From Maritimibacter sp. 55A14 (lineage in GTDB: Bacteria > Pseudomonadota > Alphaproteobacteria > Rhodobacterales > Rhodobacteraceae): a DNA stretch of 64,000 bases. Within the stretch, counting starts at the first letter, position 1. Every line of letters starts with the position of its first letter. The stretch lies in contig NZ_QEYE01000015.1 in the NCBI RefSeq assembly GCF_003122205.1, forward strand, positions 1-64,000. Reading direction: 5' to 3'. The notes beneath the pieces were generated by a model, which saw only the letters and a list, made by a program, of their open reading frames with translations, searched no databases and was not told the DNA's origin. Positions 41,598-44,192 of this stretch are shown piece after piece. Position numbers and translations under genes: made by a program.

Positions 41598-41758
41598 GGG
41601 CAGTGGATATCCGGAAACCTCAAAGCGTCGCTTAACCTCTACCCGCTTGGCCGGGTTTTTCAAGCAGCCCGGTCCGCGCCCGCGCCGGGGATCGGCGATT
41701 GCGGCGAAGGCGGCGATTGTGTAGACGCCGGACGAGCGCGCTCGGAAAGGCGAAGGAC

Positions 41759-43081
41759 ATGTCCGACCCGAAGAAACTCTTCATCAAGACTTACGGCTGT
41801 CAGATGAACGTCTACGACAGCGAACGCATGGCCGAGGCGCTGGGTCCGTCGGGCTACGTCACCACCGACGCGCCGGAAGACGCCGACATGATCCTGCTCA
41901 ACACCTGCCATATCCGCGAGAAGGCGGCCGAGAAGGTCTATTCCGAACTGGGCCGGCTGAAGCGGCTGAAGGACGCCAACCCGGCGCTGAAGATCGGTGT
42001 GGCGGGCTGTGTCGCGCAGGCCGAGGGCGAGGAGATCATGCGCCGCCAGCCGTTGGTCGATCTGGTCGTGGGTCCGCAGAGTTATCACCGCTTGCCCGCA
42101 CTGGAGGCCCGCACGCGCGAAGGCAGCAAGGCGCTTGATACGGAGTTCCCGCAGGAGGACAAGTTCGATCACCTCCCCGCGCGGCCCGCCCCGGCGCGCG
42201 GCCCCACCGCCTTCCTGACGGTGCAGGAAGGCTGCGACAAGTTCTGCGCTTTCTGCGTGGTGCCCTATACCCGCGGCGCGGAGGTCAGCCGCCCGGCGGC
42301 GCGGCTGATGGCCGAAGCCCGCGATCTGGTGGCGCGCGGCGTGCGCGAAATCACGCTGCTGGGCCAGAACGTCAACGCCTATCACGGCGAGGGGCCGGAC
42401 GGCGCGGACTGGTCGCTGGCCCGGCTCATCCGCGAGATGGCCGACATTGACGGGCTGGCGCGCATCCGCTTCACCACCTCGCATCCCAACGACATGGATG
42501 ACGACCTGATCGCCGCGCATGGCGATTGCGACAAGCTGATGCCCTATCTGCACCTTCCGGTGCAGTCCGGCTCGGACCGGATCCTGAAGGCGATGAACCG
42601 CAAGCATACCGCCGAGAGCTATGTCCGGCTGGTCGAGCGCATCCGCGCGGCGCGTCCCGACCTGCTGCTTTCCGGGGATTTCATCGTCGGCTTTCCCGGC
42701 GAGACCGAGGCCGATTTCCGCGACACGCTGGCGCTTGTGGAGGCGGTGGGTTACGGCCAGGCCTATTCCTTCAAGTATTCCGCCCGCCCCGGAACCCCTG
42801 CGGCGGAACGCGCCGAGTTGCCCGAGGACGAGAAATCCGACCGGCTGGCGCGGCTCCAGGCGCTGCTGAACCGGCAGGCCCGCGCGGCGCAGGACGCGAT
42901 GGTCGGGCGCGAGTTGCGGGTGCTCTTCGAAAAGCCGGGCCGCCTTGAAGGACAACTCGTCGGCAAGTCGGAATACCTGCACGCGGTGCATGTGCCCGGC
43001 GGCGAGGTCCGAATCGGGGATATCGCCCGCGTCCGGATCGTCAACTCAGAGGCGCATTCTCTCTCTGGTGCTCTCGTTTAG
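41759..43081 (+). CDS. miaB: tRNA-2-methylthio-N6-dimethylallyladenosine synthase
   Basis: 440 residues. Radical-SAM methylthiotransferase acting on i6A37 of tRNAs. The N-terminal UPF0004 domain supplies three cysteines ([20 protein letters not shown]) for the auxiliary 4Fe-4S cluster; the radical SAM CxxxCxxC is CDKFCAFC; and a C-terminal TRAM domain (about 375-438) binds RNA. The start [13 protein letters not shown] has GAAGG upstream. It is followed by a 220-base, relatively AT-rich gap with no gene. Confidence 0.97.
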
Positions 43082-43301: not shown

Positions 43302-43877
43302 ATGCTTGGAGCAGCCTTCAGGATGGGCGGCGTCTGGGTGCCGGCCGCAGTCGCGGCGTCGCTGGCGCTGCTGCTGAATGCCGGCGCGGTCGACGCGGGG
43401 GAGCGGCGCGTCGTATCGGGCGAACGCTACACGCCCGGTATCTGGGTCGATCCGGACGGATGCGAACACTGGGTCATGGATGACGGGGTGGAAGGCTTCA
43501 TGACCCCGCATGTGACCCGCGACGGCATTCCGGTCTGCAAGCGCGGCACGCCCTGCGGCACGCTGGAGACGGATCAACTCTTCGCCACCGACCGGCACAG
43601 TATCAACGCTGCCGGGCGGGAGCGGCTGAAGCGTTTCTTCCGCAGCGTCGGGGCAACCTCCTACATCATCGAGGGCCATACCGACAGCCGCGCCAGCGAC
43701 GCCTACAATTTGGCCCTGTCGGACCGGCGCGCCCGCGCCGTGGCCGTGGTGGCGCAGAGCACCGGCGCCCGCATTGCGGCAGTCCGCGCTTATGGCGAGC
43801 GTAACCCGCGCGCCACCAACCGCACCGCGGCCGGCATGCAGCAGAACCGCCGTGTCGAGATCTACTGCATCCGCTGA
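43302..43877 (+). CDS. OmpA-family outer-membrane/periplasmic protein with N-terminal GIWVDP module
   Basis: 191 residues. A signal peptide occupies about 1-32. Residues 46-79 (GIWVDPDGC...IPVC) form a module with two cysteines 25 residues apart, repeated in the next gene. The OmpA-like peptidoglycan-binding domain covers about 90-190: LFATDRHSINAAGRERL, IIEGHTDSRASDAYN LALS-type segment, then AYGERNP and RRVEIYC. It should anchor to the cell wall in the periplasm. GAGGGGG precedes the start. The upstream gap 43082-43301 is AT-richer than its surroundings. Confidence 0.88.
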   Translation: MLGAAFRMGGVWVPAAVAASLALLLNAGAVDAGERRVVSGERYTPGIWVDPDGCEHWVMDDGVEGFMTPHVTRDGIPVCKRGTPCGTLETDQLFATDRHSINAAGRERLKRFFRSVGATSYIIEGHTDSRASDAYNLALSDRRARAVAVVAQSTGARIAAVRAYGERNPRATNRTAAGMQQNRRVEIYCIR

Positions 43878-43892
43878 AGGAGGGGAGTGCCC

Positions 43893-44192
43893 ATGAAACC
43901 CATTGCGATTCTGCCCCTGCTGGCCGCCGCCCTTGCGCTGTCGGCCTGTGACATACCGAAGAAGAACAAGACCGTGGACCGATTCTACGACCACGGACAT
44001 CTGAGCCAGCTCAAGGCGGGCATCTGGGTGGACCCGCGCGGTTGCGACCATTGGATCATCGACGATGGCGTCGAAGGGTACCTGTCGGCGCGGCTCGACC
44101 ACCGCGGCAAGCCGGTCTGCTCGGGCAGCGCGCCGCCGGAAATGGCCGTGGGCCCGTTCAAGGACGGCAGCGGCTTCCCGGATCCGATCTGA
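43893..44192 (+). CDS. small lipoprotein sharing the GIWVDP module
   Basis: 99 residues. Signal peptide with lipobox LSAC (C19 lipidated), so probably carried to the outer membrane by Lol. Residues 43-76 repeat the module of the preceding OmpA-like protein with 20 identities in 34 positions and the same cysteine spacing (C51, C76). The rest is a short tail. AAGGAGGGG precedes the start, 15 bases after the OmpA-like stop, so both are one operon. Function unknown; a paired envelope structure is likely. Confidence 0.85.
   Translation: MKPIAILPLLAAALALSACDIPKKNKTVDRFYDHGHLSQLKAGIWVDPRGCDHWIIDDGVEGYLSARLDHRGKPVCSGSAPPEMAVGPFKDGSGFPDPI

Follow-up and report, generated by a model that had tools for sequence, protein, structure and literature searches.

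The closest described relatives of the proteins reported here are the Pal and OmpA C-terminal-domain proteins, YfiB among them. YfiB is described as a lipoprotein that sequesters the repressor YfiR (PMC4655355). In the Rhodobacterales, DalA (RSP_1200) is described as a peptidoglycan-binding outer-membrane lipoprotein whose loss impairs division, and the same paper reports that Lpp homologues are absent from most alphaproteobacteria (PMC10470522). OmpA-family proteins and lipoproteins are also listed for outer-membrane vesicles of Dinoroseobacter (PMC7901474). How alphaproteobacteria without Braun's lipoprotein hold the outer membrane to the wall is an open question.

Here we describe two adjacent genes in a 64,000-nucleotide stretch of DNA from Maritimibacter sp. 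55A14, the whole of which is called the window below. The upstream gene encodes protein A, which has the same ordinary OmpA domain with an HTD...R motif as Pal, OmpA and YfiB, judging from Pfam and from fold comparisons. Protein A differs from these proteins in that it is not lipidated (in one relative, L134, the OmpA-module protein itself bears a lipobox), has no barrel, and adds an N-terminal module that is described by no library profile. The downstream gene encodes protein B, a lipoprotein that carries a second copy of the same module. Neither the pair nor the module appeared in any paper among the matches listed in the open-licence literature, and the open-licence papers searched contain none of four module peptides and neither of two identifiers for the Ruegeria copy.

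Organization of the locus

On the + strand of the window the gene order is miaB, gene A, gene B, phoH, ybeY, a corC-like gene, lnt, metK and trmB. The names of the neighbours come from sequence recognition, from tblastn of five of them against relatives, and from the annotated Ruegeria pomeroyi record, which extends as far as metK. The features to which we refer are as follows.

41699-43081, + strand: miaB open reading frame, 5' of gene A
43302-43877, + strand: gene A, open reading frame for the upstream module-OmpA protein, 191 aa
43302-43397, + strand: signal peptide, assigned by eye from the sequence, with cleavage after ...AVDA
43437-43538, + strand: module copy A, residues 46-79 with Cys54 and Cys79 (BLASTP)
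43554-43556 and 43866-43868, + strand: C85 and C189, an outer Cys pair flanking the OmpA domain
43578-43850, + strand: OmpA domain (Pfam), with D128 and R143 of the HTD...R peptidoglycan motif
43878-43883, + strand: ribosome-binding site AGGAGG, from the sequence, right after the TGA of gene A
43893-44192, + strand: gene B, open reading frame for the downstream lipoprotein, 99 aa from the ATG, or 101 aa from a GTG at 43887
43947-43949, + strand: Cys of the lipobox LSA/C, from the sequence
44019-44120, + strand: module copy B, residues 43-76 of the ATG form (BLASTP)

Gene B begins 15 nt downstream of gene A. Its start is probably the ATG at 43893, with the GTG at 43887 as a possible alternative.

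The upstream protein carries an OmpA domain

Protein A is a secreted protein composed of a signal peptide, module copy A and a C-terminal OmpA-like domain. Residues 93-183 match the Pfam OmpA family (PF00691) with E = 4.2e-12 and 46.7 bits against a cut-off of 27.2, and the fold matches of this part are the C-terminal domains of YfiB, OprF, Pal and OmpA. At 191 aa, the protein is too short to hold a beta-barrel as well. For the residues that contact peptidoglycan we used an Asp and an Arg position 15 residues apart, which we take to be those of A. baumannii OmpA. Conservation was judged in 138 upstream proteins, that is, in the 146 gathered pairs less eight with short upstream proteins. D128 is kept in 137 of these and R143 in all 138, the exception without the HTD Asp being L130; in an alignment of 70 rows from which L130 was left out (A6), both the Asp and the Arg are present in 70/70. 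Given the kept motif residues and the fold matches, the OmpA part appears capable of peptidoglycan binding, in agreement with a preliminary description of this DNA that had placed a peptidoglycan-binding domain beside one of the module copies. The outer cysteines C85 and C189 are each kept in 137/138 upstream proteins, and both are missing only in L134; their joint loss is as expected of a second disulfide. Nine PF00691 matches over the Pfam cut-off are present in the window genome, protein A among them. Compared with NCBIfam equivalogs, protein A scores far below the cut-off for Pal (TIGR02802; 57.5 of 125.35 bits), YfiB (66.2 of 128 bits) and YiaD (80.2 of 175 bits).

By sequence as well as by fold, YfiB ranks with the nearest solved relatives of the OmpA part, and this raises the possibility of a periplasmic sensor pair like YfiB-YfiR, in which envelope stress would be sensed and the signal passed on. 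We consider such a role highly unlikely. The resemblance is limited to the generic OmpA domain, and in YfiBNR the lipoprotein itself carries the OmpA domain, unlike the pair described here. Moreover, no signalling gene lies between miaB and lnt or phoH in two annotated records.

The downstream protein is a small lipoprotein

Protein B is a lipoprotein of approximately 9 kDa, and its mature chain of 81 residues contains little beyond the module, a linker and a short tail. A permissive lipobox-like pattern is found in the lipoproteins of 146/146 pairs versus 30/146 of the upstream proteins, which bears out the earlier proposal that the second module copy is attached to a lipid anchor. At position +2 the window copy has Asp, which is also the residue in 34/146 pairs, with Val in 24 and Glu in 22. 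In E. coli, Asp at +2 is an inner-membrane retention signal, a rule that may not apply to this group. The Asp thus leaves the target membrane of the lipoprotein ambiguous, and it may be the outer membrane. By its published description, DalA is larger than protein B, at approximately 18 kDa against approximately 9 kDa, and the main text of the DalA paper mentions neither miaB nor phoH (PMC10470522).

The two proteins share a two-cysteine module

By our own count, residues 46-79 of protein A and 43-76 of protein B (ATG numbering) are identical at 20/34 positions, and the Cys pair is 25 residues apart in both copies. BLASTP aligns module A with module B with 21/39 identities and E = 3e-15. The duplicated module that had been proposed from inspection of the sequence is therefore borne out. 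When all 99 candidates in the window genome were scored with a module profile, two strong copies were found, and the sole other match at E <= 1 has E = 0.887. Among 32 diverse copies the invariant core is G-C-x2-W-x2-D-x-G-x-E-G-x13/14-C, from which a diverged pair at L154 deviates. The two cysteines of the module are kept in all 138 upstream proteins long enough to judge, and we infer that each module is closed by a bond between them. The window lipoprotein, when modelled alone, gives block-mean pLDDT values of 82-94 over mature residues 21-70, with a three-stranded beta sheet predicted for module copy B.

We compared the 32 module copies with profile libraries and found no convincing profile in Pfam (best E 0.012, DUF6440, 8/32 copies), in NCBIfam (best E 0.064, 1/32) or in PHROGs (best E 0.0019, phrog_11767, 12/32). 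Likewise, the whole lipoprotein reaches 12.7 bits with the Pfam family DUF6372 (cut-off 27.4), and 17.8 of 33 bits with EexN and 17.0 of 100 bits with Omp10 in NCBIfam. It matches phrog_11767 with E 8.3e-4. This weak signal did not hold up: the family was sought in the window genome with nothing at E <= 1, and it is matched in 10/14 control genomes, so that it is unspecific at that threshold. Among PDB sequences there is no convincing relative of the module, the better of two matches having E 0.015 over 13 positions. Fold searches with the module against the PDB gave weak matches, with a best E of 1.5 from Foldseek and, from VIA-align over 331 chains, a best Z of 2.5 with an rmsd of 5.3 over 54 residues; such weak matches are no proof of a new fold. 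The first reading of the sequence had left the module without a name, and none of the four collections (Pfam, NCBIfam, PHROGs and the PDB) holds a convincing match to it.

The preliminary description had suggested that the pair links cell wall and outer membrane through the same ligand, a picture that depends on which membrane holds the lipoprotein. In such a reading, both copies would bind one third ligand, each from its own anchor and without ever touching each other; the ligand could be a glycan, a metal ion, a peptidoglycan stem or a partner protein. This is the main rival of the docking reading that we propose below. A shared ligand would be consistent with the occurrence of the same G-C..W..D.G.EG......C core in both copies, with the retention of that core in genomes with a single match, and with the co-divergence of the two modules. 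However, neither a ligand nor a pocket came to light, and no solved relative of the module was found by sequence or fold. We regard a shared ligand as possible but somewhat unlikely.

Distribution of the module

In a search of the family, 121/198 genomes match the lipoprotein at E <= 0.01, and 120 of these 121 have two or more matches. An order-wide search with a broad module profile gave matches in 215/292 genomes at E <= 0.05; with 12 genomes whose best E was 0.007-0.05 set aside, 203 strongly matching genomes remain, and 189 of them carry two or more matches (E <= 0.05). The two genes thus recur as a pair in relatives and are not a product of chance, and their co-occurrence, on which the earlier interpretation of the pair depended, holds in both searches. 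A single match is present in 14/203 genomes, all from genus g200, which further includes one genome with two matches and one with a weak match only.

The relatives among the 80 listed belong nearly throughout to the Rhodobacteraceae and close kin, one being labelled Alphaproteobacteria only and one Rhodobacterales. Searches of the class (385 and 337 genomes) and of the phylum (349 genomes) gave no strong module match outside the family, with approximately 19-25 candidates scored per genome, as in the order search, a depth at which distant forms could escape. Seven weak matches with E 0.002-0.008 fall outside the family, in six genomes (G561, G278, G440 twice, G485, G1134 and G1179). The matches in four of these six genomes were read (G561, G278, G485 and G440), and none is the module. 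Every confirmed copy lies within the window's own family, and as far as these sequence searches reach, the module is family-restricted. A phage origin was also considered and rejected. In tblastn searches of 50,697 phage records, the window lipoprotein had no match at E <= 1, and a search with two divergent lipoproteins at E <= 10 yielded chance-level matches only (best E 3 and 0.8). No module relative was confirmed in two viral-contig scans.

Architecture variants

The rule is a module-OmpA protein followed by a lipoprotein-module protein. A profile search for other architectures, as the preliminary description had suggested, revealed pairs lacking the OmpA domain, lone lipoproteins and a diverged second pair. 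Seven pairs, spread over three genera, have an upstream protein with the module but without the OmpA domain, encoded beside the lipoprotein. Five of these are from genomes of genus g582 (L155-L159), where the upstream protein ends a few residues past the last Cys of the module; in L140 (genus g83) and L142 (genus g48), the upstream module is followed by a different short tail. The module starts are 251-352 bp apart in these seven pairs versus 554-710 bp in the others. An eighth short case is L015, in which the reading frame stops inside the module, a truncation that may be an error.

In single-match genomes the match is the lipoprotein (two were read, G448 and G812), and the same module core is kept. 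The lone module lipoprotein of G448 (genus g200; L162:4998-5315, + strand) is the only module match of its genome and follows glnB and glnA, by our own recognition of these genes. In G812 the lone lipoprotein has neither miaB nor phoH in its flank. Genome G700 contains a second, strongly diverged pair (L154:1489-2375, + strand), again a module-OmpA protein and then a module-lipoprotein, with an altered core that reads GLQGF for GVEGY. Taken together, the upstream proteins without an OmpA domain and the single-copy genus indicate that the module is the constant part, and that the two-protein arrangement is usual, not obligatory.

The pair usually occupies a site between miaB and phoH

We gathered 146 distinct adjacent pairs from the matches, a sample that is therefore biased to pair-bearing genomes. 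Of these, 116 have flanks long enough to judge; 112 are followed by phoH, 101 are preceded by miaB, and 100 have both neighbours. The 16 exceptions include loci in which the distance limit was exceeded (e.g. L040, L065 and L174), and in L134 and L154 neither miaB nor phoH is in the flank. phoH was found in 20/20 genomes without a match. In 12 of these 20, a distance of 61-192 bp separates the end of the miaB match from the phoH match; five have a gap of 0.9-1.05 kb between the two genes, and in three miaB is outside the flank examined. The pair, being present or absent between miaB and phoH, thus resembles a removable cassette set in a core neighbourhood.

Four of the five long gaps were read: L193, L201 and L210 contain other open reading frames, and L195 contains none that passes the length filter. 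With phoH oriented forward, L201:475-1119 (+ strand) and L210:620-940 (- strand) encode small, Cys-containing, seemingly secreted proteins that are alike by eye, suggesting that the miaB-phoH gap serves as an insertion site for genes of the envelope. In the same orientation, L193:492-1349 (+ strand) encodes what appears by eye to be a beta-barrel outer-membrane protein, also between miaB and phoH.

Two plasmids carry the locus. In Ruegeria pomeroyi DSS-3 the core neighbourhood from miaB to metK, with lnt, is on a 491-kb megaplasmid (L174, NC_006569.1 1-9869), and the pair (SPO_RS19800 and SPO_RS19805) is annotated as 'OmpA family protein' and 'hypothetical protein'. In a Thioclava strain, a 437-kb plasmid carries the pair, again with miaB and phoH on either side.

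Co-divergence and duplication history

We correlated residual divergences after regressing out PhoH and MiaB distances, leaving out L154, the copies on plasmids and the pairs whose upstream protein is short. For 122 pairs, module A and module B give r = 0.81, the highest of six comparisons, and module A and its own OmpA domain give 0.40. Removal of 13 loci changes these values to 0.88 and 0.51, respectively. Removal of 10 more loci, which have the long-loop type of module, lowers the module A-module B value to 0.56, no higher than the 0.58 of module A and the OmpA domain. All six comparisons beat all 1000 shuffles; the shuffles therefore do not discriminate, and phylogeny remains in them. In a set of 79 loci the values are 0.61 for module A and the lipoprotein, 0.60 for the OmpA domain and the lipoprotein, and 0.29 for module A and the OmpA domain, and in a 71-locus subset they are 0.45 for the two modules, -0.08 for module A and the OmpA domain, and 0.11 for the two neighbours YbeY and CorC. 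By these comparisons the pair co-diverges, but one deep clade accounts for most of the coupling that is specific to the modules. The co-divergence would be explained equally well by inheritance as a unit.

These values bear on a reading in which the module is a stabilising disulfide knob only, the two proteins having separate jobs and the pair being kept by inheritance as a unit. Such a reading fits a small module with two invariant cysteines, a neighbourhood whose genes travel together even onto a megaplasmid, and modules that, without one clade, co-diverge no more than other parts. However, the module is kept in the seven pairs in which the OmpA domain is absent, it makes up most of a mature lipoprotein that has little else, and its invariant Trp, Asp and Glu would exceed the needs of a knob. 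On balance, a purely structural knob seems quite unlikely to us.

Gene conversion between the modules is not supported, since module A-module B identity within genomes (0.563) is hardly above that between genomes (0.559), and 166/2000 shuffles reach the within-genome value. We also examined the long loop, with one extra residue between the cysteines, in 78 pairs. It is present in B alone in 7, in both modules in 13 and in A alone in 0, with a short loop in both modules in 57 and one pair misparsed; this pattern is suggestive only, because phylogeny can yield the same. In the module tree, the best split between A and B copies misplaces 19/201 sequences, of which 17 are A copies, 16 of these with the long loop. 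A single old duplication of the module is the likely origin of the two copies.

A proposed role for the pair

We propose, with a probability of roughly 0.4, that the pair is a two-piece envelope scaffold in which module-to-module contact docks a peptidoglycan-binding protein onto a membrane lipoprotein. Modules A and B would bind each other, an ancestral homodimer having been split by duplication, and their contact would dock the wall-bound protein A onto the membrane-bound protein B. The pair together would then perform the task that Pal or OmpA performs as a single chain, forming a non-covalent tether from membrane to peptidoglycan; alternatively, within the same proposal, the scaffold may serve to place another envelope protein. 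Since protein A is itself without lipid or barrel, it would need another membrane holder if it is to tether, and the module-bearing lipoprotein is the obvious candidate. A homodimeric ancestor would also fit the way in which paralogous pairs may commonly arise from a self-associating domain. The lone lipoprotein of genus g200 would form a homodimer or work with a different partner. A read-through fusion of A and B was modelled with middling confidence, with a pTM of 0.55 and pLDDT values of 53-69 for the module blocks.

A more specific form of the docking proposal, which we hold to be rather doubtful, is that this family-confined module, with a fold unseen in the PDB, constitutes a matched pair for docking and so divides the job of Pal between a soluble peptidoglycan binder and a lipid anchor. 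It would thereby provide a reversible membrane-to-wall link in bacteria said to be without Lpp homologues. What we have observed is a conserved feature at the level of the family, a variation on the OmpA/Pal theme rather than a new system. As a conserved two-gene cassette with a docking-type module, the pair is a candidate for attachment of the outer membrane to the wall without Braun's lipoprotein.
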